Positions 3,706 through 39,672 of a DNA stretch of 64,000 nt are shown piece after piece (position 1 is the stretch's first letter; each line of letters opens with the position of its first letter). The notes under the pieces were generated by a model. That model saw only the letters and a list, made by a program, of their open reading frames with translations, ran no database searches and was not told where the DNA came from. The stretch is taken from assembly GCF_000024205.1 (NCBI RefSeq), contig NC_013216.1, forward strand, positions 2,480,001-2,544,000, written 5' to 3'. This DNA is from Desulfofarcimen acetoxidans DSM 771. GTDB taxonomy: Bacteria > Bacillota > Desulfotomaculia > Desulfotomaculales > Desulfofarciminaceae. Made by a program: the position numbers and the translations under genes.

Positions 3706-5949
3706 TCACATCATGTTTTGCGGCTCAACGTCAACAATAATTGAAAGCAACCTGTTTCCTTGCCGGCTCTCAAAAATGTCGATCCCTTTTGCTGCCAGCT
3801 GGCGAAGGATCAAAGCCTGTTTTCCTTTTAAAACGATTTGCCAGCGGTACTTCTCTTTTATTTTATGCAGTGGCGCCGGCGCCGGTCCTAATATATCGGG
3901 TCCATGAGGGTTAAAATCTCTTTGAGCCTCCAGCAAACATTCTTTTAATAAAAAAGCACCGCTCTGCACAAGTGCTGACTGAGTAGAGGAAAGTATAATT
4001 CTGATTAAACGGGAAAAAGGCGGATAGCCCAACTCCCGCCGTATAATCATTTCCTGTGCATAAAAGTCCTTATAACTGTTATTTAGCGCGGCTTTTATAC
4101 TGTAATGCTCGGGATTATAAGTCTGGATGATTACCTCCCCGGGTTTCTCACCACGACCTGCCCGTCCCGCAACCTGAGTCAACAGTTGAAAAGTCTTTTC
4201 GGCTGCCCTAAAATCAGGCATATGCAAAGTAGTATCAGCATTAATAACTCCGACCAGTGTAACATTAGGTAAGTTCAAACCTTTGGCCAGCATTTGAGTG
4301 CCAATAAGAATATCTGCTTTCCCGTCCAAAAAATTTTTCAATATTTCAGCGTGTGCACCTTTACGGGAAGTAGTATCAGCATCCATTCGCAAGACACCGG
4401 CAGAGGGGAAAATATGTCTTATTTCTTCTTCAACTTTTTGCGTCCCGGTACCGGCAAATCTCAGTTGTTCTGAAGCACAGTTACTGCATTTATTAATAAC
4501 CGGACTGATGTAATTGCAGTAATGACAGCGCAGTGTCAAATCACTGTGATAAGTAAGCGATATATCGCAATGCGGGCATTTTAAAACAAAACCGCAGTCA
4601 CGGCATATAACTATAGGGGAAAAGCCTCTTCTGTTAATAAACAAAATAGTCTGTTCTTTTAATCTGATTTTTTCCTCAATTTTCTGCAGTAAAGCCAGAC
4701 TAAAAATGCCCGGATTGCCCTTGTGTGTTTCAGCGCGCAAATCAATTGTTTTGATTTGCGGCAGGGGTTTTTGCTCTATCCTGTTTTCTATTGACAAATA
4801 GCGGTAGGGGCCCTCCTTCTGAGCACGACAATAAGATTCCAGCGACATTGTGGCGCTGCCCAAAATAACCACCGCTCCGCTTAATTTAGCTCTTTGCAGG
4901 GCTACTTCTCTGGCATGATACCTGGCTTGATCATCTTGTTTATAAGCTGCTTCGTGCTCCTCATCAATAATCAGTAAACCGGGACCGGATAAGGGAGCAA
5001 AAACTGCTGAGCGGGTACCCAATACTATTTTACTGTCCCCGTTCCTGATTCTTTGCCACTCATCATACCTTTCCCCGGCGGATAAAGCGCTATGTAAAAC
5101 AGCTACCGTATCACCGTATCTTTCCTTAAAGGTGTTTACCATTTGGCCGGTCAGGGCTATTTCAGGCACGGTTATAAGTGTTTTACGCCCTAAGACCAGA
5201 GCCCGTGCTATTACGTTCAAATAAATTTCGGTTTTGCCGCTGCCGGTGATGCCGTGTAAAGCAAAAACCTGGCTCTGGGAAGACTCAATGGCCCGAATAA
5301 TTTCTCCGGCACAGTAAGCCTGTTCCGGCGTCAAAACAGGGCCAGGAATCCCCGTAGGTTTAATTGGATAAGGATTTCTCCTTACAGAAGTTGTCCTGGC
5401 TTGCAGCAAGCCTTTGCCGACAAGCGCGCTGACAGTTGCTGAAGATACCCCCACCTGGTCAGCCAGTGCCTTGGGTGATAAACCAGGCTGGCCCGCCGCC
5501 GCTTTAATTACCGCCGACTGTTTAGGCGAGCGGTTAAGCTTGGCGAGTACTTGTGCCAGTTGGTTATCGGCAAAACCGATCCACAAGCCTGTATAGCTTC
5601 CGGCAGCTTTAACCCTTACAGCGGGAGAAACCATACATTTTAGCGCCTGGGCCAAGGTGCATAAATAATAAGCTTTCATCCAACGGGCTAAAGTCCATAA
5701 TTCCTCTGTTATAACCGGTTCATTATCCAGGACTGCCAGAACAGGCTTCAGCTTTTCTTGAGATACCTGTGTAATGCCAGAAAAACCGACAACATAACCG
5801 GTAACTTTACGACCGGCAAAAGGAACAATAACCCTCATGCCAAATTTAATTGCCGGAAAAAGATCTGCCGGTACTATATAACTAAAAACCCGGTCCACAT
5901 TGCGCACCGGAACATCTACTACTATTTCGGCATAAACCTGTTCTGACAT
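3706..5949 (-). CDS. priA: Primosomal protein N' (PriA helicase)
   Basis: Superfamily 2 DNA helicase that reloads the replisome at stalled forks. The 747-residue product has an N-terminal DNA-binding region (1–~200), Walker [13 protein letters not shown], the DEEH box in [14 protein letters not shown], and the zinc-binding insert with paired cysteines (CRDCGF, CPHC, CHYC, CSNC), followed by helicase motifs such as [12 protein letters not shown] 5949 is preferred over GTG 5958 since AAGAAGTG lies ahead of it. It sits between coaBC and def, a common Firmicutes order. Confidence 0.96.
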
Positions 5950-5990: not shown

Positions 5991-7202
5991 CTAATCAATG
6001 GGGCTGCTTTTCCTTATCCCAACTACTTCATCAAGTATTCGATGAGCCAGCTTAATTTTGTCCATCTTAGGCAAACAAAGGGGTTCGCAATCCGGGTAAA
6101 CCAGTGCCGCGATATTGGTTTCAGTACCAAACCCCGCATCCGGCAGAGTTATATCATTGGCTACCAAAAAATCCAATTTCTTTTTTTGTACCTTTTGAGC
6201 CGCATTCTCCAGCAAATCCTGGGATTCAGCAGCAAAACCAACCAGAATCTGTCCTGCTTTCTTCTTTTGTCCCAATTCAAGCAATATATCCGGGTTTCTT
6301 GACATTTCCAGTACCAACTCACCGGTACCTTTTTTAATCTTATGTTCAGCTGCTGACTTGGGCCGGTAATCAGCTACCGCTGCAGCTTTAATCACCACAT
6401 CAGTCAAGTGAAAACGCTGCAACACGGCATGATACATATCTATTGCCGAAACAACGGGAATGAACTCCAGGTCGTGCGGCGGTTTTAAGTGGCTGACGCC
6501 ACTGACCAGAGTTACCTCGGCACCACGGTCACGAGCGGCCTGGGCCAAGGCATACCCCATTTTACCTGTACTTTTATTAGTAATAAACCTTACCGGATCA
6601 ATATCCTCCCTGGTAGCTCCGGCAGTTATTAAAACTCTAACACCCGCTAAATCTTTTTTAACGGTTAAAGCCCGGTTAATCTCCTCGTATATTATGTCAA
6701 GATCAGCCAGCCTGCCTTGTCCCTCTGTACCGCAGGCCAATCTGCCGGTTCCCGGTTCAACAAACAAGAAACCTCGTTCTTTTAACCGGCTGATATTTTG
6801 CCGGACAACAGAATTGGCATACATGTTAGTATTCATGGCCGGGCATATAAGAACCGGACAGTTAGCTGCCAGCAAGACAGTGGAAAGTAAATCATCCGCC
6901 AGTCCCTGCGCTGCTTTGGCAATAATGTTAGCTGTAGCCGGAACAACCGCCAGCAATTGAGAGCGAGTTGCCAGCTCAATATGAGGGATACCGCCATGCT
7001 CCGGAATATCAAATAAATTTGTATAAACAGGCTTGCCGCAAAGTGTAGCCAGTGTTAAAGGACTGATAAACTTTTGTGCCGAATCAGTCATAACAACATG
7101 AACATCTGCCCCGTTTTTTGTTAAATAACTTACGATATCAGCTGCTTTATAGGCTGCAATTCCACCCGTTACACCGATTGTAATAGCCCTGCCCGACGGC
7201 AT
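5991..7202 (-). CDS. coaBC: Bifunctional phosphopantothenoylcysteine decarboxylase / phosphopantothenate–cysteine ligase
   Basis: Catalyses two successive steps of coenzyme A synthesis: CTP-dependent joining of 4'-phosphopantothenate to cysteine (CoaB, C-terminal half) and FMN-dependent decarboxylation (CoaC, N-terminal half). The N-terminal flavoprotein part shows GVTGGIAAYKA and the substrate-binding PAMNTNMY motif. The CoaB half starts near residue 185 with VLITAGATREDIDPVRFI and NKSTGKMGYALA. At 403 residues, length is normal. It follows rpoZ by 18 bp. Confidence 0.96.
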   Translation of the reverse strand: MPSGRAITIGVTGGIAAYKAADIVSYLTKNGADVHVVMTDSAQKFISPLTLATLCGKPVYTNLFDIPEHGGIPHIELATRSQLLAVVPATANIIAKAAQGLADDLLSTVLLAANCPVLICPAMNTNMYANSVVRQNISRLKERGFLFVEPGTGRLACGTEGQGRLADLDIIYEEINRALTVKKDLAGVRVLITAGATREDIDPVRFITNKSTGKMGYALAQAARDRGAEVTLVSGVSHLKPPHDLEFIPVVSAIDMYHAVLQRFHLTDVVIKAAAVADYRPKSAAEHKIKKGTGELVLEMSRNPDILLELGQKKKAGQILVGFAAESQDLLENAAQKVQKKKLDFLVANDITLPDAGFGTETNIAALVYPDCEPLCLPKMDKIKLAHRILDEVVGIRKSSPID

Positions 7203-7220
7203 AAGATCACCCTCAAAACT

Positions 7221-7427
7221 CTATTTAATTCCTGCTTTAAGGCGCCTGTATCTAACTTTACCCCTGAGCAATTCGTGCAGGGCAGTAGTAACAGGTTTGC
7301 CGGGCAGTTCACTTTCATTTGTTTGAAACAACTCCGTTAGCTGGCGGGCACGCTTGGCCGATACCACCACCAGTGTATATCTACTGTCAACCATATCCAA
7401 CAAAACATCCAGTGACGGCTGATTCAT
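7221..7427 (-). CDS. rpoZ: RNA polymerase omega subunit
   Basis: Small 68-residue omega subunit, which helps assemble and stabilise RNA polymerase. The sequence MNQPSLDVLLDMVDSRYTLV followed by VSAKRARQL is the conserved omega core. TAGGAGG precedes the ATG. The gmk-rpoZ-coaBC-priA order is conserved in many Firmicutes. Confidence 0.93.
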   Translation of the reverse strand: MNQPSLDVLLDMVDSRYTLVVVSAKRARQLTELFQTNESELPGKPVTTALHELLRGKVRYRRLKAGIK

Positions 7428-27536: not shown

Positions 27537-28742
27537 TCACAGTGTATTTCCTCTTGCAATACTTATACGCCTCCACAACCAAGCAAAAGGTCTGATAAAA
27601 TAATATAGCGGGTATAAGCTATCGGGAAGAGAAATTAGTTTATAATCTTGGCCAATCGGCTTACATAGTGAAGAAATATATGCTAGCTTATTGGAAAATC
27701 CGGAGTAAAGCTTTAAATTATAATTAATTATGAGTATTAAATTTTTTAGATATAAAAACTGCAGTTCAGATATGTTATCTTCTTGGTCAACTAATTTATT
27801 TATCACCGTTTTGGCCAAATCCCATGCTTTATCATCATGCAGCACACTTTGCTTCATACCGGCAGGTATGGGTAGTGCAAAAAGTTCTTTTAGTAAAATC
27901 ATTGTCTGGTGTAAAATGACTTTAAATTCAGATTTATTTGCCATAAAAATAATTTTATCCCAATCCAGGCAATTGCTTTGCCGCATGAATCTATCAATAT
28001 CACACAACCACCGCAGACGAAACCACTTGTGACCACACCCATGCACCATAAGAAACCAAAGCCATTCTTCGTCCGCCATAACAGGTACCATACTTCCCGC
28101 AATTTCCAGCTTCCTGGTACATAAGTTTGATAATGCCGGCAGCCCTAAATCAATATGATGAATCTTCCAGTGAATCTCCAGGCAAATATTGCGCTCAGAA
28201 TTAAAATAATTGTAATGCTTTAATTGGTTTATTTGTGACCTTTTCTGACGTGGAGTCATGGGAAAATCATATGTATTATTTATATAACCTTCTTCTTTCA
28301 GTATTTTTTCGGCCTTTTCCAATTTCTGTGGCTCAACCAGTATATCAATATCCTTGGATGGTCTTAAAGCAAAATCCCCGTATAGTTTAAATGCCAGAGG
28401 ATGACCTTTTAAAACCAGACATTGAATTCCATTTTCCTCGAAACTATTAATAATCCTTACCATTTCACCGGTCATACAGAGAGACCTTAGAGCATTCTGC
28501 CGGTACTCCTGCTGCAAAGCATTGATGACTTCAGCGGGAACTGCCGGGTTATTTAAACTGCACAATGTTTTATAGGCCAGAGGAAACAGCCTGTGGTACA
28601 CAGCCAGGTGTAAAAATAAATCCCAATTTACGGATTGCGGCAACAGGATATGGTTTTTTTCTTTTCCCATATTGAGGTTGACACAATGAAGCAAAAGCAG
28701 CAGTTCAGGTGATATTTTTTTAGATGACTTACGATATATCAT
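27537..28742 (-). CDS. Nucleotidyltransferase-family protein of the lasso-peptide cluster
   Basis: A 401-residue protein of the NTP_transf_5 family. The active-site region LVLKGHPLAFKLYGD then RPSKDIDILVEP (about residues 102–130) supplies the G-x-D-x-D-type metal site. In paeninodin-like clusters a protein of this family stands beside the kinase, and in some cases is reported to extend the phosphorylated C-terminus of the lasso peptide. Its ATG overlaps the stop of the B2 gene (ATGA). It is the last gene of the run; the IS200/IS605 remnant begins about 130 bp beyond. Exact donor unknown. Confidence 0.85.
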   Translation of the reverse strand: MIYRKSSKKISPELLLLLHCVNLNMGKEKNHILLPQSVNWDLFLHLAVYHRLFPLAYKTLCSLNNPAVPAEVINALQQEYRQNALRSLCMTGEMVRIINSFEENGIQCLVLKGHPLAFKLYGDFALRPSKDIDILVEPQKLEKAEKILKEEGYINNTYDFPMTPRQKRSQINQLKHYNYFNSERNICLEIHWKIHHIDLGLPALSNLCTRKLEIAGSMVPVMADEEWLWFLMVHGCGHKWFRLRWLCDIDRFMRQSNCLDWDKIIFMANKSEFKVILHQTMILLKELFALPIPAGMKQSVLHDDKAWDLAKTVINKLVDQEDNISELQFLYLKNLILIINYNLKLYSGFSNKLAYISSLCKPIGQDYKLISLPDSLYPLYYFIRPFAWLWRRISIARGNTL

Positions 28743-29239
28743 TCACTACAATCCTTCCGAACAATATAATCACAACCATAATCTCCAAAAAGAGATACGA
28801 CTTTAAACTCCTCCACGCTGCAGTTGCCGGTAATTATTGCCGGTCCTACTCTAAGCCAAGCATGGGCAACCAATCCATTTTTTTTATTCTTCCTTACTCC
28901 AAAATACATTGTATTTGCTATGCCCCTTTTTCTTACTAAAACCTTAGCTGTTATCGCCTGGACCATGCATTTGCTTTCCCACGGAGTGTAGCGGCTTACA
29001 ATCTCTACTGCTCTGCCAATTTTTTGGGCTGCCTCCAGTTTCACAACATTTTCTTCAGCAGGCGAGTTCATACCCTGCTTTCCCAGATACCTGGCTATCC
29101 ACTTAAAAGGCAACATTATAACAAACGCCCTCAAGATACCCGTCAGGCATAAAACATGGAGAAACATGCAACGATCCGCCCGAGAAAGATGAAACCACTT
29201 TTTCAGCAACCTAAACAATGGCAATAAGTCCTTCATCAT
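28739..29239 (-). CDS. Lasso peptide biosynthesis B2 protein (leader peptidase)
   Basis: A 166-residue transglutaminase-like cysteine protease that cuts the leader from the precursor. The catalytic cysteine is in WESKCMVQAITAKV (about residue 80) and the histidine in VAHAWLRVGPAIITG (about 130), both matching Firmicute B2 proteins. The first 25 residues are basic and helical. The gene overlaps the B1 gene by 29 bp and lasso gene N by 4 bp, suggesting translational coupling. Function is inferred from family and context. Confidence 0.92.
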   Translation of the reverse strand: MMKDLLPLFRLLKKWFHLSRADRCMFLHVLCLTGILRAFVIMLPFKWIARYLGKQGMNSPAEENVVKLEAAQKIGRAVEIVSRYTPWESKCMVQAITAKVLVRKRGIANTMYFGVRKNKKNGLVAHAWLRVGPAIITGNCSVEEFKVVSLFGDYGCDYIVRKDCSE

Positions 29240-29501
29240 ATATCTTATTTAAAAAAATGCATACATCCCCATGACAAGTATTTTCAGCAACGTCATACTC
29301 CTCAATTAGCGTTGCAATTATTTCTTTAACACTGACAGGCCTGTCAATCAGATCCCAAATCCGGCTCCCAATGGAATTAAGTCCGTAGTACTTGCCTTTT
29401 TCAACACTCAGCATGGCCTTTTCGCCATCCAAATCGGCTGCAATGAAACCGGTTGCCTGGACAATAATTGATTCAGGCTTAATTTTCTGGCGTTTATACA
29501 T
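29211..29501 (-). CDS. Lasso peptide biosynthesis B1 protein (PqqD-like leader recognition)
   Basis: A 96-residue PqqD-family protein acting as the RiPP recognition element: it binds the leader of the precursor and presents it to B2 and the cyclase. The winged-helix features are clear: KYYGLNSIGSRIWDLID, then EIIATLIEEYDV and the C-terminal FLNKIYDEGLI. It begins 5 nt after the kinase gene and overlaps the B2 gene. Splitting of B into B1 and B2 is usual for lasso clusters in Gram-positives. Confidence 0.92.
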   Translation of the reverse strand: MYKRQKIKPESIIVQATGFIAADLDGEKAMLSVEKGKYYGLNSIGSRIWDLIDRPVSVKEIIATLIEEYDVAENTCHGDVCIFLNKIYDEGLIAIV

Positions 29502-29506
29502 CTATT

Positions 29507-30451
29507 TCACTTCCATTCCTCAAAATCCCTCTTCAAAAGGGCAATCTGTTCTTCTATCGTAAACATTCCATCCGGTCTGATAATTCCGGAAACAGCCACC
29601 TGTTGCGCAAGAGCTGCGGAATGGCGAAAAGATTCCTCTGCCAAGTTCAGCCCTCGGATAAAACCGGATCTGTAAATATTATTCATAATCACGGAAAGCT
29701 TGCCCATCCCAGAAAACCTATTCATGCTTACACCCGGACAATTTTCTTTCCTCAGTTCATATATTGCCGTAAGTTTTTGGGGAATTCCACAAAAATTATC
29801 TTGTATTGATATGGCATATTTATTAAATTTTCCCCATATATTGGGATATGAAGTTGGATTATTCACCAGCAATGCCAGGCTGTCTTTCCACAGCTTTTGC
29901 TGCGGATAAGCAGGTAGAACCAGGGGATTTCCCGCCTGATCAAAAGCTACGGCGGCTATATCATCCGTTAAGATCGAATATCCCTTATTTTTAAAAGCAG
30001 ACGCCAGGGTTGACTTGCCGGCGCCCTGAACCCCGGTAATGATAAAACAATATTTACCGGCCGCAATGGCGCTGCCATGAATGGGCAGCAACCCCCTTTG
30101 CAACAGCAAGGCTCCCATTGCCGAACCCAGCAGATACAAACGAACAGCACACGTTTCAGCTTTTTGAACCGGTTCGACAATAATTTGACTCCCATTTTTT
30201 ATATAATAGCTTGCCACACCCTTCACATGCAGCAGTAATTGATTTTTACCGGCCTGATAATATTCATTACCTGCAATAACTTCATCAATGTATTCAGGCA
30301 CTTTACCGGCAATGATATGCACATCCGGCACACCTGCACCCGGCAATAGCTCCGGTAAGGGTATTTCGGAAGATATACAGATTCCGAAAGCACTGTATAC
30401 GGCATCTTTATTTTCTATCATAGTAAATTCACATTCCATATTAAATTCCAT
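29507..30451 (-). CDS. HprK-like kinase of the lasso-peptide cluster
   Basis: An HPr-kinase/phosphorylase-like protein. The P-loop ITGVQGAGKSTLAS stands near residue 155 and the following SILTDDIAAV acidic segment matches the HprK catalytic region. In the paeninodin cluster the equivalent kinase phosphorylates the C-terminal serine of the precursor; the precursor here also ends in Ser-Ser. The frame is open from TTG 30508, inside the cyclase gene; ATG 30451 (314 residues) is chosen to avoid the overlap, but no strong ribosome site marks either, and ATG 30439 is also possible. Confidence 0.88.
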   Translation of the reverse strand: MEFNMECEFTMIENKDAVYSAFGICISSEIPLPELLPGAGVPDVHIIAGKVPEYIDEVIAGNEYYQAGKNQLLLHVKGVASYYIKNGSQIIVEPVQKAETCAVRLYLLGSAMGALLLQRGLLPIHGSAIAAGKYCFIITGVQGAGKSTLASAFKNKGYSILTDDIAAVAFDQAGNPLVLPAYPQQKLWKDSLALLVNNPTSYPNIWGKFNKYAISIQDNFCGIPQKLTAIYELRKENCPGVSMNRFSGMGKLSVIMNNIYRSGFIRGLNLAEESFRHSAALAQQVAVSGIIRPDGMFTIEEQIALLKRDFEEWK

Positions 30452-30477
30452 ATCTAAAAATAACGGTTTTCGTAAGC

Positions 30478-32427
30478 CTAACACTGCATATGCTTCAGGT
30501 ACCGGCAAAAAATGATACTTCTTAACAACATCCGCAAGTTATAATCATTAAAAGCGTCAGTGCCGGCCAGGTCAATTGCCTTTATTGTCCGGTGTATTCT
30601 TTCGATATCAAGATATTTTTTTTCCTGCTCATTTTGACCGATTTTCATGATTTCTTCTCTGATTTCTTGCTCCATGGGCAGCAGTCTCTGCACAAAATCG
30701 GCACTTTGCTGTCCCCTATACCCGTAATTGAGTCTTACTTTATCCGGAAGTATGCCTGCCATGGCACGCCTCAATAAAAATCTCTCCCTGCCGTTTCTGA
30801 TATACTGCTCTTCAGGTACACTAAAACAGAATTCTATTACTCTTTTATCAATGGAAGGATCCCTGATTATTAAATTATGGGCAAGAGCAATTTTCGTATA
30901 AATACCTGCCAAATGACTGAGATGAGCAGGAGACAGCATCATTTTTCTAAACTGAAAAGAATCCATTTTTTTTATGTAAAACGGGTCATATTTATAGCTC
31001 TTAAATCTCGCTCTGCCGCCCATCCGGTCAGCATAAATTGGATTAATAGGGGATAAATGAAGCGGCGCATCCCAATTGCTGTTTCGCAGCTTATACCATG
31101 TTATTTGTAGTTCATAGGGAAGCAATGCCTTAATTAATTCTGATGTAATTCTAATGGGATTAATTTTTTTCAGATCCGAATAAGAGCGGATCTCTTTTAC
31201 CAGCCGAATCCATTTACCTGAACGCATAAGTGATATTATACACTGTCTAAAAATCCCGTAGGATATAGTAGTATTTCCCATACCTCCAGTCAGCATGATG
31301 CCGGTGTTTATTTCCCCGGCCCGGCTTAAAATTCCGTCAATCCAAAATAAGTTTTCCAGTATTTTATAGGGCTGCTCAAATATTAAGAAAAAACGGTCCG
31401 TATCACTTAATGAATTTTTTCCGTCGCAACGGCAGTAGGTGACATCAAGATTACCGGAATACTCCCTGACTGCCTCGATATATGGTGTTTCATCAGCTAT
31501 TTTACCTGAAGACAGCTTGTTCCGGTATCCCTCCATTGGTATTGAACTGAAGGCCTGTAGGGATTTGCCGGTTTTCCCAAGCTCCTGAGCAGCCAGACAG
31601 GCTATGGAAGTTGAATCAAGTCCTCCGCTGAGCATTATTCCCACCGGTTTTATGCTCCTGATCCTGCAGTTTATTGCCTGTTTCAGAACATGCCGAAAGG
31701 CTTCTGCATACTCTTGGTCTGATTTAAGCTTCAGTTCTTTTTGCTTTTCCACCTGCCAGTAAACCTCTTTGCTTATTCCCTGTTTACTCACAGTTAAGGC
31801 ATGGGCGGCGGGAAGTAAAAGAATATCTTTATATATGGTTAGTTCAGCATCCAGTTGATGAATTACCGCAGGCAGGGAAAGATAATCGCAAATCCATTGG
31901 TCAGAATATTTTTTTTCCTTCTCTCCTGTTGAAAATAAGGGCTTTATGAGGGTGGAGAAAGCAAATTGCTTGGGAGATATGTAATAATAAAAAGTTCTGT
32001 TTCCGGTATGATCAACGGCACAAAATAATTCCCCGGTCTTCCCGTCCCATACGGCAAAGGCGAAATCACCCATAAGATGTGCCAGACATGCTTTGCCCCA
32101 TTTTTGATAGGCTTTTAATATTAGAAAACTATCGGTTATTTCTTGATTACATTTTCCAATGCCAAGTTTGGCAAACAGTTCTGCTCTGTTATCTATTATT
32201 GCATCTGCGGCAATTGTAATATTAGATACCTTATCTTGATAAGGAAGCTTTTCATAAACCGATTCCGGGGTAATGAATTGAACGCAGCATCCCAAAAATA
32301 CCTGGCCGGCATTCCATGTATCCGTATAATCTGATTTATATATTCCCAATTCATTCATCATGGAAGCCGATATTTCCGGATTAATATTATTTCCATTTAA
32401 ATTATAAATACCACATATAGACCCCAT
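30478..32427 (-). CDS. Lasso cyclase (asparagine-synthetase-like, C protein)
   Basis: A 649-residue homologue of glutamine-dependent asparagine synthetase. The ATP-pyrophosphatase motif LSGGLDSTSIACLA lies near residue 265. In lasso clusters this protein adenylates the side-chain acid at core position 7–9 and closes the ring onto the N-terminal amine. The start at ATG 32427 reads MGSICGIYNLNG; GGAGGCAGTGAGG precedes it. The Cys is at residue 5, not 2, so ordinary glutaminase action is doubtful. The gene follows the precursor gene after a 190-bp gap holding a terminator-like hairpin. Confidence 0.92.
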   Translation of the reverse strand: MGSICGIYNLNGNNINPEISASMMNELGIYKSDYTDTWNAGQVFLGCCVQFITPESVYEKLPYQDKVSNITIAADAIIDNRAELFAKLGIGKCNQEITDSFLILKAYQKWGKACLAHLMGDFAFAVWDGKTGELFCAVDHTGNRTFYYYISPKQFAFSTLIKPLFSTGEKEKKYSDQWICDYLSLPAVIHQLDAELTIYKDILLLPAAHALTVSKQGISKEVYWQVEKQKELKLKSDQEYAEAFRHVLKQAINCRIRSIKPVGIMLSGGLDSTSIACLAAQELGKTGKSLQAFSSIPMEGYRNKLSSGKIADETPYIEAVREYSGNLDVTYCRCDGKNSLSDTDRFFLIFEQPYKILENLFWIDGILSRAGEINTGIMLTGGMGNTTISYGIFRQCIISLMRSGKWIRLVKEIRSYSDLKKINPIRITSELIKALLPYELQITWYKLRNSNWDAPLHLSPINPIYADRMGGRARFKSYKYDPFYIKKMDSFQFRKMMLSPAHLSHLAGIYTKIALAHNLIIRDPSIDKRVIEFCFSVPEEQYIRNGRERFLLRRAMAGILPDKVRLNYGYRGQQSADFVQRLLPMEQEIREEIMKIGQNEQEKKYLDIERIHRTIKAIDLAGTDAFNDYNLRMLLRSIIFCRYLKHMQC

Positions 32428-32562: not shown

Positions 32563-32597
32563 AAAAACAGTGCAACGGGCAGATAGCCCGCTGCACT
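32563..32597 (-). terminator. Hairpin plus T-run between precursor and cyclase genes
   Basis: Read on the minus strand, AGTGCAGCGGGC pairs with GCCCGTTGCACT (one G·U pair in RNA) around the loop TATCT, and GTTTTTC follows at once. It begins 23 nt after the precursor stop. A partial terminator here would give more precursor mRNA than enzyme mRNA, a common design in peptide gene clusters. Confidence 0.82.
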
Positions 32598-32619: not shown

Positions 32620-32748
32620 TTAGGAACTCATATCGACCCCTTGGCTCGCTATATCAATACCTATTCCCCCACCGTTTTCTGTCAGCTTGATATCAATCTC
32701 AATTATTTGCGGGGGTATCCATGGCATTTTGATTGTTTCTTTTTCCAT
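32620..32748 (-). CDS. Lasso peptide precursor (paeninodin-like)
   Basis: A 42-codon gene directly ahead of the cyclase gene. The leader (residues 1–24) contains WIPPQIIEIDIKLTE, which lines up with the Y-x-x-P…L-x-x-x-T leader pattern of paeninodin-type precursors (Trp in place of Tyr, Thr at -2). With Thr at -2 the core is NGGGIGIDIASQGVDMSS (18 residues). Asp8 would form an 8-residue ring with Asn1; the core ends Ser-Ser, fitting C-terminal phosphorylation by the kinase encoded nearby. A GGGGTG stands 6 nt before the ATG. The gene is too short for ordinary ORF cut-offs. Confidence 0.88.
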   Translation of the reverse strand: MEKETIKMPWIPPQIIEIDIKLTENGGGIGIDIASQGVDMSS

Positions 32749-32783: not shown

Positions 32784-35057
32784 TTATTCGCCTGCATATA
32801 CCTTGGCACGTATTTTGTCTGCCGTACCGCTGCCTTCCTTCCACGATACATATAGTTTACTGTCATATTCCGCAAAGGCCGGCCCGGAAGACGCTTTTGA
32901 CAGATCATAGTTTATATCATCTGCTGTTTTCCATGTGCCTGATGCATATGACTTAATTTTAACTTTGCCATTTTCCGTCCAGGCTGCATAAAGAATATTA
33001 TTGTACACGGTTCCGTTTAACATGGATGCATCTTGGGATGAACTATCATTCAAACTGCCACTGTCTATTTGATCCCATGAAGTACCGTTGTATTTTTTGG
33101 CCCTGATCTGGTATATACCTGAATTATCCTGCTCAGCCCAAATGATATACAGGTTGCTGCTATCGGCCAACAGGATCGGCATATCGGCAAATTTAGTGCT
33201 GTCAATATTAATGCTTGTATTATTGTCTGCCGTACTCCAGGATGTTCCGCCATCATATTTTTTTACTCTAATGTTTCCTTTTTCACTCCAGGCAGCAAAG
33301 AGGGTATTGCTGTATACCGCAACCGATGGGAGTGTTGCTTTTTGAGCGGGATCACAGTTTAAGGTTCCCGGATCCGCCTGATTCCAGGTACTACCGGCAA
33401 ATACTTTGGCTCTGACCTGATTTTTTATTCCATTGTTCTCCAGCCATACTGCATACAGTATGTTATTGCAAGCCGCCAGCTTCACGTTAAAGGCTTTGTT
33501 GGCGCTATAACTTAGATCCTCAACATTTTCCCAGCTATTTGCCGTACGGTTATATTCCCTTCCATATACCTGGTAATCAGCACCCGTTTCTTCATACCAA
33601 GCAAGATATAAATCACTTCCATAGGGCATTAAAATAGGATTATAGGCACCTTTTTGCGTATCCATATTCAAACTGCCGCTGTCAGCGTTTTCCCATGTTG
33701 TGCCGTTATATTTCTTTACTCTTATTTGCGTATGACCACTCGTGTTTTCCACCCAGGTTGTATAGAGTTTACCGTCATAAACAGTCATGCTTGGCGTCGT
33801 CGCCCAAACTGACAAATCATAGTTCAGGCCTCCGTTATCAAGGATGTAGGTAAATTGATCGCCCGAACCCGTCGCGCTGGTCCCACCTGACGTTGTTACC
33901 GTCACATCCACTGTGCCGCTCCCCGCCGGGGAAGTGGCTGTGATCGAGGTATCGCTGTCAACTGTATAGCCGGTAGCCGCTGTGCTGCCGAACTTCACCC
34001 CAGTGGCCCCAGTAAAGCCGGTGCCACTGATTGTTATTGATGTCCCTCCGGCTGATGGCCCACTGGTCGGGCTGATGCTGCTCACCACCGGGGCTGGAAG
34101 AACTACAGTAATAGTGAAGCTGCCACTATCCGACCAGCGGGCCGGAATTACACCATTCGATTCCTGCACATAAAGAGTATGAGAACCGTTGGATAAGTCA
34201 CTTCCCGGAGTGTAACTCAGTGAGGTCGTTGTAGTGGCTCCCAAAGATAAGTCATCATCGTCCAGTTTATATCGGAATGTTCCATTGCCCCCTCCACCCG
34301 TACTCCAGCTCCAGGTAGGTCTCGTGTCACCGGTGTATTCCGGTCCGGTTACCGTAGGAGGAGTTGGCACCGGAGTGTAAGTTAAATCCAGTTTTGACCA
34401 TAAATCTGTATTATCATCCTGATTGCTGACAAAGTTAAAATCACATAAACCTTCACCCTCTATCCCTGTCAGTACGAAAACAACATTTGTTTTCCCAGCA
34501 TCAACGCATGATTGAATATAATCTTTAACATTAAATTCTTTAAATTTTTCACAGTCATCAGGAGTTACTGGCATTGAATAAAGGATATTCTCTGCATTAT
34601 AAGTAGGAAAAGCCGGACTTGAGTCAGTTTCATTCCAAGTGTCATCCTCGGTTGGAATTATGTTTACCACAGGGCTTCCTTCAACATCGACAACATAAAA
34701 TTTAAATGTGGCAGTGGTAATTGTACCTGTAATTCCGGCAAGACTGAATTTGACAGCCGCTCTTTCATATGTAAGAGGAGGCTCATAGTCTAGTACGCTC
34801 CCAACCCAGTTAACATTTATACTTCCAGAGTTATCAGTAACCGGATTGATCATTGGATGTGCTTTGTTTTCATCTATAATAGAACTATCAGTCGCAACAT
34901 CCTGTGATACATTAATTGAAGCACTTGCTGCATAAGCGGCAGGTTTCGCTGAAAGGCATATAATTGATATAATAATAACAATTATATAAAATTGATAAAA
35001 TACTATTTTCTTCAAAATATTAACATTTGCCCCCCTCCCCATGATTTTTAAATTCAT
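32784..35057 (-). CDS. Secreted multidomain protein with Ig, TIG and seven propeller-like repeats
   Basis: A ~757-residue exported protein. A signal peptide ends near ..KPAAYA-AS (~residue 43). Then come a DNRLRE/carbohydrate-binding-like region (~50–205), an Ig-like domain (~210–295), an IPT/TIG domain (PVVSSISPTSGPSAGGTSIT, ~300–385), and seven repeats of the form LY-x-x-W-x-E…K-x-Y-x-G-x-x-W (from ~395 to the end), as in a seven-bladed beta-propeller. Start is uncertain: ATG 35057 is used, TTG 35015 would give a more compact signal peptide. It ends 35 bp before the precursor gene, with no terminator seen between. Function unknown; adhesion or glycan binding is a guess from fold types. Confidence 0.8.
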   Translation of the reverse strand: MNLKIMGRGANVNILKKIVFYQFYIIVIIISIICLSAKPAAYAASASINVSQDVATDSSIIDENKAHPMINPVTDNSGSINVNWVGSVLDYEPPLTYERAAVKFSLAGITGTITTATFKFYVVDVEGSPVVNIIPTEDDTWNETDSSPAFPTYNAENILYSMPVTPDDCEKFKEFNVKDYIQSCVDAGKTNVVFVLTGIEGEGLCDFNFVSNQDDNTDLWSKLDLTYTPVPTPPTVTGPEYTGDTRPTWSWSTGGGGNGTFRYKLDDDDLSLGATTTTSLSYTPGSDLSNGSHTLYVQESNGVIPARWSDSGSFTITVVLPAPVVSSISPTSGPSAGGTSITISGTGFTGATGVKFGSTAATGYTVDSDTSITATSPAGSGTVDVTVTTSGGTSATGSGDQFTYILDNGGLNYDLSVWATTPSMTVYDGKLYTTWVENTSGHTQIRVKKYNGTTWENADSGSLNMDTQKGAYNPILMPYGSDLYLAWYEETGADYQVYGREYNRTANSWENVEDLSYSANKAFNVKLAACNNILYAVWLENNGIKNQVRAKVFAGSTWNQADPGTLNCDPAQKATLPSVAVYSNTLFAAWSEKGNIRVKKYDGGTSWSTADNNTSINIDSTKFADMPILLADSSNLYIIWAEQDNSGIYQIRAKKYNGTSWDQIDSGSLNDSSSQDASMLNGTVYNNILYAAWTENGKVKIKSYASGTWKTADDINYDLSKASSGPAFAEYDSKLYVSWKEGSGTADKIRAKVYAGE

Positions 35058-35108: not shown

Positions 35109-36161
35109 TCAAGATCCGACATTTATTGTGCACAGATATGTTTTTTGATCTGTACCAAATACTGAAGAAACTACGATATCAATCGGATTGCTGCCTGTGC
35201 TCACAGGAACCGTTAATGCAACTCCACTGGTTGCAGGATTGCCTTTAATTTCGATTGTCGCGCCGGTATCTTCGGCGGTAGCGGTTATTAAAACACTTGT
35301 GATAACGCCGGCCGTAGCAGTATACTCAAAAGTATTCCGATTGAAAGGCGGGGAAAGAGTAAGCGTTGTCCTTCCTGACTTTATTGCCAACCCACTCAAA
35401 TACGGGCTGCTGGCCCTGGTCACATTGACTGTATATGTCTGCGGCTCACCGATAACGGGAGTAACCACTATATTAACCGGTGTAATGCCTTCCGCTGTCA
35501 GGCTGACCGGTTGGGATGACTGCCCCCACAGCACCGGGACACCGTTTACCTCAACTGTGGCATTAGGATCTGTCGTCGTTGGCATCACGGTTATATTTTC
35601 AGTGTCAAAGCCAACCGACGCGGTGTACGCAACGGTTGTTTTTGCAAAGGGCGGATTAATAGGAATAACGGCAGCACCGCTGTTTAAACTAAGAGCCGAT
35701 AAGGTCGAGTCTGTGGGAGGCGCGTCATACACTTCAAATTCCGCTATCGAAGCAAAATTTGTATTACACCTCAAGCCTTTGGTAATGTAAACCCTTACCC
35801 ACCTAACCTTATAGGGTGTAATCGTTCTGTCGGTGCAATTTAACGAATTATCGGTCACACTGTCAAGATCGAACCAATTAGAATTATCCAGACTTCCCTG
35901 AAACTTGTAATCTACCAGATTGTAATTAGTCGACCAGCCTACGCCTCCCAGTTGCTTGACCACCCATCGGCTGACCCAAAAATTAGCGCCGAGGTCGACA
36001 CTTAGCCAGTTGGGTACCGGTACTCCCGGCGACGGTGGAATCGGCGATGTACCCAGCCACCTGTTGAGCGGTGTCACTACCCCGTCAACTGCTTTAGCCG
36101 GTATGTAAGGATAAACAAAACTGTTTGCCCCTGCGGCCTTTTTTAGAGCAATATTACTCAT
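35109..36161 (-). CDS. F5/8-type C (discoidin) plus two cadherin-like beta-sandwich domains
   Basis: A 350-residue protein. Residues ~1–150 resemble a discoidin domain (AKAVDGVVTPLNRW, WLSVDLGANFWVSRWVV, VRWVRVYIT). Two cadherin-like beta-sandwich domains follow (STLSALSLNSG… and PYLSGLAIKSG…, each with the F-x-x-x-T-x-x-Y-T core). No signal peptide is seen. ATG 36161 is preferred since AAAGGATGG lies ahead of it. Such domains bind carbohydrate or cell-surface ligands. It lies between the tail-collar doublet and the propeller protein, all in one direction. Confidence 0.8.
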   Translation of the reverse strand: MSNIALKKAAGANSFVYPYIPAKAVDGVVTPLNRWLGTSPIPPSPGVPVPNWLSVDLGANFWVSRWVVKQLGGVGWSTNYNLVDYKFQGSLDNSNWFDLDSVTDNSLNCTDRTITPYKVRWVRVYITKGLRCNTNFASIAEFEVYDAPPTDSTLSALSLNSGAAVIPINPPFAKTTVAYTASVGFDTENITVMPTTTDPNATVEVNGVPVLWGQSSQPVSLTAEGITPVNIVVTPVIGEPQTYTVNVTRASSPYLSGLAIKSGRTTLTLSPPFNRNTFEYTATAGVITSVLITATAEDTGATIEIKGNPATSGVALTVPVSTGSNPIDIVVSSVFGTDQKTYLCTINVGS

Positions 36162-36209
36162 AATTGCAATCCATCCTTTCAAAAATCCCTTTGTTTAGGT
36201 TATTATCAC

Positions 36210-36452
36210 TTATTCCCTGGTCGGGTATATGCCGGAGACACAAATATAATATCCGGTACCCGGTATTGCTTCTGCTCCTTGCAGGTTGGGAAGATTGAAA
36301 GTGGTTTGGCCGTTTCCGCCGAATTTGTTGCCTATCAAGGAAAACAGGGCTGCATTCTGCTGTACTGAAAGCTGTTGTCCGTTGCACAGCATCCATCCCA
36401 CTGGTACAAAACTGTATGGGAATACGATAATTTGTCCCAAAAAATAATCCAT
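36210..36452 (-). CDS. Short phage-tail-collar (microcystin-dependent-protein-like) protein 2
   Basis: An 80-residue protein with the tail-collar signature: LGQIIVFPYSFVPVGWMLCNGQ, then NAALFSLIGNKFGGNGQTTF-type repeat and LPNLQG, and a terminal ICVSGIYPTRE. Tail-collar/Mdp proteins are normally about 170–180 residues; here the central part is missing but both ends are kept. CAGGAGG precedes the ATG. Next to it lies a paralogue. No other phage gene is in the window. Confidence 0.82.
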   Translation of the reverse strand: MDYFLGQIIVFPYSFVPVGWMLCNGQQLSVQQNAALFSLIGNKFGGNGQTTFNLPNLQGAEAIPGTGYYICVSGIYPTRE

Positions 36453-36492: not shown

Positions 36493-36741
36493 TTAATATC
36501 TGCTGGGGTAAATGCCCTCTACCGCTATGCAGTAATGCATTCCCATACCTTGCATGGGCAGCGCATTTCGCAGATCAGGCAGGCAGAAGGTGGTGATACC
36601 GTTACCTCCAAATGTAATGCCGATTAGTGAAAACAAAGTCTGATATGTCGCAGTGCTCAACGTTTGACCCTCACAGGGCATCCAGTGCCTAGGTGCAAAA
36701 TCAAAGGCAAATAGTTCAATATCCCCTAATAATGGATCCAT
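36493..36741 (-). CDS. Short phage-tail-collar protein 1
   Basis: An 82-residue paralogue of the downstream gene: LLGDIELFAFDFAPRHWMPC, TLFSLIGITFGGNGITTF and the C-terminal CIAVEGIYPSRY. Identity with its neighbour is roughly 40–50 percent by eye. The ribosome site TAGGAGGAAG is near perfect, suggesting strong translation. It is the first of four same-strand genes coding for extracellular-type folds ahead of the lasso genes. Confidence 0.82.
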   Translation of the reverse strand: MDPLLGDIELFAFDFAPRHWMPCEGQTLSTATYQTLFSLIGITFGGNGITTFCLPDLRNALPMQGMGMHYCIAVEGIYPSRY

Positions 36742-36879
36742 AATACACTTCCTCCTAAAATACTAGAATTTATCTTCTTTATAAAATTAACATGTCTGCA
36801 ATTTACCGGACAACAGTCATATATACCCTAAAAACGTTTGTTCATACCAAGGGTGATCTATTGTTTAATACCGCACAAC

Positions 36880-36919
36880 AAAAAACCGCCTGTCCTTTAA
36901 CAAAAGTTAAAAAGCAGGT
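36880..36919 (-). terminator. Terminator after the LytTR regulator gene
   Basis: On the minus strand CCTGCTTTTTAAC and GTTAAAGGACAGG form an interrupted stem, followed by CGGTTTTTTG. It separates the regulator gene from the tail-collar genes. Confidence 0.7.
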
Positions 36920-36974: not shown

Positions 36975-37697
36975 CTAAGCTTCATCGCTGCTGCCGATAT
37001 AATTTAAGAAAGCGCGGTTTACCGCCTTGGCATAGGTCTTCCCGATGGGTATTAGTGTCCCGCTGAGGGTGGTGAAAAACTGCGCGTTCATCATAGAAAC
37101 CTGTTTGAAATTAATTATAAAGCCACGATGGCAGCGGCAAAAGTTCAGTTTGGGCAAACTGCTTTCCATACCGGATATTCCGGAATTGATTTCATAAATC
37201 CCCTGTTTAGCCACCAAATTCACCGATTTCAAGGTACTTTCAAAAAACTCGATGTCGTCATAGGGCACTTTATGGGTCATCCCTCTTGATTTAAAGACAA
37301 AATACCGGTTTTCAAACCGCCTTTTGAGGTCAACCAACAGCGCGGTTGCCAGGGCCTGCGTATTTATGGGTTTCAAAAGATATTGCAGCGCCTGCACCTC
37401 ATAACCAGTATAAACATATTGCCCGGAAACGGTGGTGAAGATGATGGCGACGTAATTATTAGTGAGTCGAATGGCTCTGGCCGTATCAATGCCGTTGATT
37501 TCCTTCATGAAAATATCCAGAAAAATCAGGTCAAAGCCGGCGGGTTCTTCGTTGATACAGTTTAATAACGCTTCGCCGGAGAAAAAAACTTCGATATCAA
37601 AGGCAACACCAGTATTGTGCAAAATCCCCGACACCTGATGGCGCAGTGCGACGACAAAATTCTCCTCATCATCACAGATAGCTATTTTATACAGCAT
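36975..37697 (-). CDS. LytTR-family response regulator
   Basis: A 240-residue regulator: an N-terminal receiver domain with acidic pocket ICDDEE, phospho-acceptor in DLIFLDIFM and the conserved lysine in YLLKPI, followed by a LytTR DNA-binding domain (about 135–235). LytTR regulators such as AgrA often control peptide and surface-factor genes and bind paired 9–10-bp repeats. It is divergent from the sensor kinase gene, its probable partner, and lies just upstream of the extracellular-protein/lasso block. Confidence 0.9.
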   Translation of the reverse strand: MLYKIAICDDEENFVVALRHQVSGILHNTGVAFDIEVFFSGEALLNCINEEPAGFDLIFLDIFMKEINGIDTARAIRLTNNYVAIIFTTVSGQYVYTGYEVQALQYLLKPINTQALATALLVDLKRRFENRYFVFKSRGMTHKVPYDDIEFFESTLKSVNLVAKQGIYEINSGISGMESSLPKLNFCRCHRGFIINFKQVSMMNAQFFTTLSGTLIPIGKTYAKAVNRAFLNYIGSSDEA

Positions 37698-37842
37698 GAT
37701 TCTTTACCAACCTTTATACCGTTATAAATAAGCAGCTTTTATGCCTGAAGCATATTGTTTATTTTTATTGTAGCCTTTAATATTATAATAGCATAATATT
37801 CCACTATTTAGTCAAGCTATTAAGTCAAGTGAGGTGACGCCT

Positions 37843-39672
37843 GTGTCGTCCAGGAAGATCTGGCTTCTCACCCTGGCTGCCCTGTGTTTTTCAGGTTTGT
37901 TGATGTGTGCCGATCTCATAAGCGGCAGCCGTGGCCTGTTTTATAATACCGATACGCACACCATGAACACAGGCTGGAAAATATCCGGTGGTACCAAAAC
38001 CCTGTACGAAGCTGCCTCTTTTGCTAAAGCAGGTTCTTTGAAAAATGAGCACTTGGCAGTCCTCACTAAGACACTGCCTGCCACGGTAGATCAAAGCGTA
38101 TGCTTTGTCACCATCGGCTACCGCGTGGCAGCCTTTGTCAATGATCAAGACATTTACACCTTCAACCCCCCTTTGGACAGCAAAGAGGTCCGGGGAGTAA
38201 AAACCCATATACTTAAAATACCCGACGGCACAGACGGCAGGGAGTTCAGGCTGGTGTTGGCAACTAATCAACCAGGGAACACAGCGGTGTCCAAATATAT
38301 TATATTGGATAATGCCATAGAGATAATCAGGGCTTTACAAAAATCCGACCTGATGAAATCAGCTTTCGCGTTGCTTTATATATTTATCGGCATATCCATA
38401 TTGATATTTACACTGATTTCAGCTATTTTAAAAAAATTCGACCTTTCTCTATTGATGCTCGCTCTAATAGCGCTGTTTATAGGGACAGGCATTTTATTAA
38501 ATCTCAGCAGCATTGCTTTTTATACAGGGCCGGAGGCTGTTTACTGGATGGTGAATATCATAAATCTGGCGCTGCCTATACCGGCGTTATTATTTGTAGC
38601 GGCGGACAGGGGCTATGCCCAAAGCAGGCTGCTTACAGCAATGGCCGTTGTCCAGAGCGTGTTTCTGGCAATATGGTTAGTCTGTAACTTTTTAAATATT
38701 GATATTATTTTTCTGCACTGGCAGCCGGCATTGTTTGCCGCCATCCTGGCAGGCCTCATCATTACCTTCGTAAAAGAATTCAAATCCGGCTCCGGACGGC
38801 CGGAAATTGCTGTCTCAGTCATTGCCATTTTATTGACCTCAGTAATCAATGCCCACAGTTATTTTACTGCCGGAAGATATGAGACAATGGATTTCAGCTT
38901 AATCATTACGGCTCTTCCGGTCCTTGTACTAATGACCGGAAAGGTGGTTCTAAGCTCTGCTCAAAAGGAATACCGCATACTTAATGAAAATATGACCCTG
39001 CGGCTGGAAGGAGAACTTCTATATAAGAATTATAACAAGACAGAAAAGTACATTGAAGAAACCAAACGGATCTGGCATGATATCGACAGGCATTTTTCGG
39101 TGATCAGCAATCTGGCGGGGAATGGGGTATATGAAGAATTAAAACTGTATCTGAAACAGGTAGGCTATGACTTTAAGAAAATAAAGGAAACATACCTCTG
39201 TGAAAACAAGCTAATCAACGCCATTTTAACCGAAAAAATTTCTGAAGCCGAAGACAGCGGAATCGAAGTTAGATTTACCGGAAATTTGCCCGATAAATTA
39301 AAAATACAGGGCAACGACCTGTGCAGCCTGTTGGTTAACATGCTGGACAACGCTATTGAGGCTTGCATTAAAATACCGGAGGGTCATAAGAAGAAAATTG
39401 ATATTTCTATCAGAATGAAGAATGGTTTTATTTATTTCGGTGTCTTAAATACTTCCCCTGTGGCACCGGTTATGGCCGGTGAAGACTTTATCACATCAAA
39501 AGCAGATAAGACAAAGCATGGGTACGGTATTTCCATCATCCAGAGAATTACCCGGAAATACAACGGCGCTTTTGATATTATACTTTCCAATAACTCTTTC
39601 TTAGTCAAGGCTGCGTTAAAAAATGCGGATGCCGGGGAATTCTTTGCCAAAGACTATAATGACAACCTGTAA
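37843..39672 (+). CDS. Membrane sensor histidine kinase, GHKL type with DISM-like sensor
   Basis: A 609-residue kinase. An N-terminal helix (~7–25) leads to an extracytoplasmic domain (~26–165), then seven or so membrane helices (~175–365), a linker and the kinase core. The phospho-acceptor lies in RIWHDIDRHF, the N box in NMLDNAIEAC and the G box in KHGYGISIIQRI. GTG 37843, 6 nt after GAGGTG, is favoured over GTG 37834. The layout recalls 7TMR-DISM kinases. The partner is very probably the adjacent LytTR regulator. Ligand unknown. Confidence 0.88.
   Translation: MSSRKIWLLTLAALCFSGLLMCADLISGSRGLFYNTDTHTMNTGWKISGGTKTLYEAASFAKAGSLKNEHLAVLTKTLPATVDQSVCFVTIGYRVAAFVNDQDIYTFNPPLDSKEVRGVKTHILKIPDGTDGREFRLVLATNQPGNTAVSKYIILDNAIEIIRALQKSDLMKSAFALLYIFIGISILIFTLISAILKKFDLSLLMLALIALFIGTGILLNLSSIAFYTGPEAVYWMVNIINLALPIPALLFVAADRGYAQSRLLTAMAVVQSVFLAIWLVCNFLNIDIIFLHWQPALFAAILAGLIITFVKEFKSGSGRPEIAVSVIAILLTSVINAHSYFTAGRYETMDFSLIITALPVLVLMTGKVVLSSAQKEYRILNENMTLRLEGELLYKNYNKTEKYIEETKRIWHDIDRHFSVISNLAGNGVYEELKLYLKQVGYDFKKIKETYLCENKLINAILTEKISEAEDSGIEVRFTGNLPDKLKIQGNDLCSLLVNMLDNAIEACIKIPEGHKKKIDISIRMKNGFIYFGVLNTSPVAPVMAGEDFITSKADKTKHGYGISIIQRITRKYNGAFDIILSNNSFLVKAALKNADAGEFFAKDYNDNL

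Follow-up and report, generated by a model that had tools for sequence, protein, structure and literature searches.

A Short Gene of Desulfofarcimen acetoxidans as Very Likely Precursor Gene for a Lasso Peptide of the Paeninodin/Pseudomycoidin Type

Introduction

Does a very short open reading frame ahead of a lasso cyclase gene in Desulfofarcimen acetoxidans DSM 771 encode the peptide on which the cyclase acts, and what kind of peptide would that be? The locus lies in a 64,000-nt stretch of contig NC_013216.1 (positions 2,480,001 to 2,544,000; hereafter the window), to which coordinates refer unless another locus is named. An original prediction had placed here a minus-strand precursor gene of 42 codons, with a paeninodin-like leader, an Asp at core position 8 and a C-terminal Ser served by a kinase. 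Our analyses indicate that this gene, A, is very likely the precursor gene for a lasso peptide of the paeninodin/pseudomycoidin type. The product would probably have an Asn1-Asp8 ring and a phosphorylated Ser18, and probably be glycosylated; its ring size, threading and glycosylation are what we infer. The family itself has been described in Bacillota before; what is new is the member, not the kind.

Gene A and the evidence that it is translated

Gene A (32620..32748, minus strand), identified as an open reading frame with homologues, comprises 42 codons and a stop, and begins at an ATG at 32748. The small gene is real, and its coordinates, strand and translation proved to be exactly those predicted. 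An in-frame GTG three codons upstream is an alternative start that would give 45 aa, and a GGGGTG stretch 6 nt 5' of the ATG is possibly the ribosome-binding site. The same-strand order is a secreted-protein gene, A, and then the genes C-K-B1-B2-N. Only 35 nt separate the stop of the secreted-protein gene from the start of A, and 192 nt separate the end of A from the better-supported cyclase start (32427).

A single match to W..P.{9}T with a C-terminal Ser was found in the 64-kb window, at A, and two across thirty simulated 64-kb sequences. When the leader was compared over 24 codons with that of a homologue in Candidatus Formimonas warabiya, there were 4, 4 and 10 differences at codon positions 1, 2 and 3, respectively. 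This concentration at third positions is a purifying pattern, and indicates that the leader is a translated, conserved peptide. A chance open reading frame is ruled out by the motif statistics, the codon pattern and the homologues. The peptide matched no Pfam or NCBIfam model even at E 1, and this includes NF033524, the NCBI model for paeninodin family precursors, which is a naming model and not a biochemical criterion.

The 24-aa leader (MEKETIKMPWIPPQIIEIDIKLTE; 32677..32748, minus strand) was delimited by an alignment of 16 precursors, including A, and by the register of PbaA from Paenibacillus alginolyticus. It has W at -15, P at -12, I at -10 and T at -2 (W10, P13 and T23 of the precursor being the first, second and last of these). 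Both leaders read WxxPx[L/I] with W at -15, so that the predicted leader pattern is present in A and in the register of PbaA. With the leader in this register and T at -2, the 18-aa core (NGGGIGIDIASQGVDMSS; 32623..32676, minus strand) would start at Asn25 of the precursor. A Thr at -2 is the rule in characterised lasso systems, Ile(-2) cases aside (PMC10368454), and this rule would make Asn residue 1 and the ring one of eight residues. The combination expected of a lasso precursor, T at -2 with Asp or Glu at core positions 7-9, is found in A as T23 and D32 (core 8). From the sequence, Asp8 is the predicted ring acceptor and Ser18 the predicted phosphorylation site. Asn is unusual as the first residue of a lasso peptide.

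The core of A is the shortest among the 16 precursors and contains no F, W, Y, H, R or K, whereas all fifteen relatives have some aromatic or basic residue. Where A has IASQ, a Formimonas homologue has IAFQ. Judged by its residues (I, A, S, Q, G, V, D, M and S), the tail is a weak steric plug. It follows that either the tail is capped by a phosphate or phospho-sugar, or its threading is not stable.

Between A and C lies a hairpin of 12 pairs followed by a T-run (32569..32597, minus strand; z = -2.83). It is likely an attenuator or terminator that would let A exceed the enzymes in amount. No obvious hairpin was seen by eye at this place in Formimonas.

The enzymes encoded after A

The genes C, K, B1, B2 and N lie on one strand, overlap or nearly so, and are all open. 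The strongest direct test of membership is given by B1 (29211..29501, minus strand), a PqqD-like RRE of the paeninodin type that scores 106 bits against NF033536 (cut-off 80). Crystal structures of the paeninodin-type RRE PbaB1 with its leader (9x90) and of LppB (9x8z) were reported in 2026, with the residues around leader W-15, P-12 and L-10 named for PbaB1 (PMC13381572). PbaB1 is the closest PDB match of B1, gapless and with E 1.5e-23, as against E 3e-4 for LppB. Nine of the ten hydrophobic pocket positions compared are identical (I44, I48, L65, Y69, V71, F83, Y39, L41 and L92), and the tenth, L87, is Ile in B1. PbaB1 residues E75 and Q79 are replaced by Thr and Asp in B1; these two are not strongly conserved (PMC13381572).

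The leader peptidase B2 (28739..29239, minus strand) is transglutaminase-like and scores 99.9 bits against NF033537 (cut-off 33), so that RRE and peptidase are both over the NCBI lasso cut-offs; its C91 and H126 are invariant in five B2 proteins. Beside the precursor gene stands C (30478..32427, minus strand), encoding an asparagine-synthase-like lasso macrolactam cyclase; 32427 is its likely ATG start, and the reading frame is open to 32487. Its best model is the lasso cyclase NF033535, at 443 bits and under the curated cut-off of 525, as is likewise the case for a second cyclase of the same genome. PF00733 (Asn_synthase) and PF13537 (GATase_7) are both over cut-off, and the S-G-G-x-D-S loop is kept.

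K (29507..30508, minus strand) is an HprK-like kinase whose reading frame runs from a TTG, the true start being probably further in. It is weakly recognised by Pfam and NCBIfam, its closest solved sequences are HPr kinases at weak match, and its fold model (pLDDT 46) was too poor to use. Residues H144, K165, D182 and D183 are kept, and are invariant in nine K proteins. They are consistent with the H-K-D-D motif reported as essential in HprK-like lasso kinases (PMC9266682). The pairing of a C-terminal Ser with a kinase, anticipated in the original prediction, was borne out, with Ser ending 16 of 16 aligned precursors and the kinase carrying these His-Lys-Asp-Asp residues.

N (27537..28742, minus strand) encodes an NTP_transf_5 nucleotidyltransferase-like protein (PF14907, 237 bits), for which we propose a PsmN-like role. 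In pseudomycoidin, the N-type protein is needed for the addition of one or two hexoses to the phosphate, and whether it is itself a glycosyltransferase was left open (PMC9266682). The presence of N makes a phospho-glycosylated Ser likely, beyond the +80 Da form alone. For the closed Asn1 ring the calculated [M+H]+ is 1659.764, rising to 1739.731 with phosphate and to 1901.783 with phosphate and hexose; a Gly1 core with a 7-residue ring would have 1545.72.

In the pathway that we propose, B1 would bind the WxxPxI leader and K would phosphorylate Ser18 on the precursor. B2 would then cut after Glu(-1), the predicted cleavage point, and C would close the ring around the tail by linking the amine of Asn1 with the side chain of Asp8. 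N would then probably extend the phosphate, with a sugar in the one case studied. The order of the K, B2, C and N steps in this cluster is presumed.

Homologous precursors and comparison with known systems

Clusters in ten other genomes, and a second locus of the D. acetoxidans genome, likewise combine homologous precursors with homologous cyclases. In the alignment, W10, P13, E17, T23 and D32 are invariant. The Asp predicted at core 8 is kept across the relatives; the Thr-to-Asp distance varies by several residues in the family. Full-length cyclase relatives with 51-55% identity occur in five genomes of the order (G010, G020, G025, G035 and G066), and copies are broken in G088 and reduced to a fragment at a contig edge in G104. 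The second copy within the D. acetoxidans genome is 52% identical, that of Formimonas (Peptococcaceae) 73%, and those of two Paenibacillus relatives 36-37%. Precursors with the same leader are present in all clusters holding these cyclase relatives. NF033524 gave weak matches to 5 of the 16 aligned precursors, and scored 57.7 bits against an annotated Priestia precursor.

The second locus of D. acetoxidans (L036, G000:C1:3465000-3477000) is a complete lasso set of K, B1, B2, A, C, N and an ABC transporter. Its precursor (7186-7338, minus strand) has, by the T(-2) rule, the core DHIVYKVNGGSDCMYDTEHTDHVS, in which there is no Asp or Glu at positions 7-9 and the first acid after Asp1 is Asp12. 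The same rule also leaves no acid at core 7-9 in five further precursors of cyclase clusters: L037 (9882-10022), L038 (7471-7629), L043 (5289-5447), L046 (10046-10216) and L047 (10020-10214). In these five the next Asp is at core 10, 11 or beyond, which implies either a shifted cut or rings of over nine residues. A literature search for lasso rings of over nine residues found no relevant report.

Some further observations concern these and related loci. In G088 (L044), the first precursor gene (4440-4600) appears frameshifted and both cyclase genes are broken; this cluster is either decaying or affected by assembly errors. In the Priestia paeninodin cluster, the HprK-like lasso kinase (L067, 9333-10268 in NZ_CP064100.1) carries the annotation "aldolase". 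D. acetoxidans has a third B1-B2-HprK-like-NTP_transf_5 locus (L052, 2890-8262; G000:C1, about 1666889-1672261), with no lasso cyclase and with DUF362 and B12-binding radical SAM genes in its place; this is maybe another phosphorylated RiPP locus.

Of the characterised systems, paeninodin (pade, Paenibacillus dendritiformis) resembles the cluster of A in its split B1/B2, H-K-D-D kinase and precursor with C-terminal Ser (PMC9266682, PMC5067487). The paeninodin-type features found here are a WxxP leader with W at -15, the C-terminal Ser, the H-K-D-D kinase and a Trp pocket of the PbaB1 kind. The cluster differs in its predicted Asn1-Asp8 ring, its added N gene and the lack of a match to NF033524. 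Pseudomycoidin (psm, Bacillus pseudomycoides) also has K and N beside the lasso genes and a C-terminal Ser (reviewed in PMC9266682), and a phosphorylated and glycosylated product like its own would be expected here. The NTP_transf_5 protein that marks the pseudomycoidin subtype is present as N; however, the cluster of A has no D gene, and its host is not a Bacillus. Priestia aryabhattai has the same C-A-K-B1-B2 set plus D, annotated with a paeninodin family peptide. Formimonas (NZ_CP017634.1, L045) shares K-B1-B2-N and GGG at core 2-4, but has two precursors with predicted rings of 9 and Phe in their tails, and an ABC transporter gene after N.

Alternative readings of the locus

A very unlikely variant of the same system would have B2 cut one residue later, with T at -3, to give a 17-residue core with a seven-residue Gly1-Asp7 ring. 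Lasso cores classically begin with Gly, and in two Paenibacillus relatives Gly1-Asp9 would result if the cut were shifted by one residue; together with the variable Thr-to-Asp distance, this suggests that cutting may not follow T(-2) strictly in every case. Against such a shift stand the T(-2) rule itself, from which characterised systems depart in the Ile(-2) cases (PMC10368454), and the annotated Priestia paeninodin-family precursor, which is Leu1-Asp9 by that rule and so makes a first residue other than Gly ordinary in the family.

The core of A has no bulky tail residue to hold the thread, which would speak for a branched-cyclic or linear phosphopeptide in place of a stable threaded lasso. 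Linear polyphosphorylated peptides (LPP) with an HprK-like kinase, a discrete RRE and an NTP transferase of the same types exist in Bacilli, but they have a YxxP leader, an SpI-like peptidase and no cyclase of their own (PMC13381572). In the window, the neighbours of A include genes for a cyclase and for B2, the leader of A carries WxxP, and B1 belongs with the paeninodin-type RREs and not with LppB; membership of the LPP family is ruled out by the WIPP leader and by B1 matching PbaB1 far better than LppB. The cap could also be a phospho-sugar, if the last residue carries one. We regard an unthreaded product as unlikely.

A transporter D homologue was searched for and not found in the 64-kb window. 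D follows N in Formimonas and in the second cluster of the same genome, and in the window IS200/IS605 transposase remnants lie directly past N. These features, with the short plug-less core, would fit a cluster that has decayed by losing its transporter near the insertion and no longer makes its peptide. Yet the remaining genes are all open and tightly packed with their catalytic residues kept, the leader has changed little at first and second codon positions, and the D gene of the second cluster could serve both, which makes decay decidedly unlikely. Export would then depend on the second cluster's transporter or on some other pump.

The secreted propeller protein and other surface-protein genes upstream of A

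The gene preceding A (32784..35057, minus strand) encodes a secreted protein of 757 aa, whose N-terminus is hydrophobic and whose domains are CBM96/DNRLRE-like, TIG and, at the C-terminal end, a repeat domain modelled as a propeller of PLL-lectin-like fold. PF24517 was over cut-off at 32.5 bits when the N-terminal part was scanned alone; NF033679 was below cut-off. The model of the C-terminal domain (mean pLDDT 77.9) matched CylK with Z 30.3 (rmsd 2.9 over 330) and Photorhabdus lectins of the PLL type with Z 28.8 (rmsd 2.6 over 294), which we take to be seven-bladed propellers. Folds of this kind are widespread, and likeness of fold does not establish a function.

In Formimonas, each of the two precursors comes immediately after a gene for another secreted protein that ends in this propeller domain (59% and 52% identity across the aligned parts). 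The domain is rare, occurring in 1 of 113 genomes of the order (D. acetoxidans only) and in 3 of 398 in a phylum sample. A precursor stands behind a propeller-protein gene in three tandems from two genomes, which makes a linked function plausible. Outside the window and Formimonas no general propeller-lasso link emerged: in two further phylum-sample genomes and on a plasmid of Tepidibacter, distant copies of the domain could not be connected with lasso genes, and near a second copy in the same genome (L051) there was no precursor-like ORF and one motif match that was not of the precursor type. Paeninodin-type clusters are often near capsule loci, and the role of paeninodins is stated as unknown (PMC13381572). 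We raise tentatively, as an unlikely reading, that the lasso peptide and the secreted carbohydrate-binding propeller protein encoded ahead of it form a functional pair, in which the phospho-glycosylated peptide would act with, or be anchored to, the lectin-like surface protein.

Other surface-protein genes lie nearby. A gene for an F5/8 type C and cadherin-like surface protein (35109..36182, minus strand; PF00754, PF12733) ends 51 nt before the propeller-protein gene, and the two are possibly on one transcript. In one further relative (L039), an F5/8 type C domain protein is encoded upstream of two precursors, and on the Priestia plasmid some 6 kb separate a DNRLRE-protein gene and that of the cyclase. 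The same-strand run begins with two tandem genes for small phage tail-collar (PF07484) proteins (36210-36452 and 36493-36741, minus strand). Upstream of the surface-protein genes, a LytTR response regulator (36975-37697, minus strand) and a GHKL histidine kinase (37834-39672, plus strand) are divergent, and in the gap 36804-36880 the sequence TGTTGTSCGGTA occurs twice, 65 nt apart.

Conclusions

With A, phosphorylated lasso peptides of Bacillota would extend to a lineage outside Bacillus and Paenibacillus. As precursors such as that encoded by A escape NF033524, the number of such genes is probably underestimated. The plug-less core offers a useful test of the smallest tail that a lasso ring can hold, and also of a phosphate or phospho-sugar on the last residue as a cap. 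The tandem behind the propeller protein is the one new clue to function and a concrete lead; if the pairing of peptide and propeller is true, it would be the first handle on what paeninodin-type peptides do.
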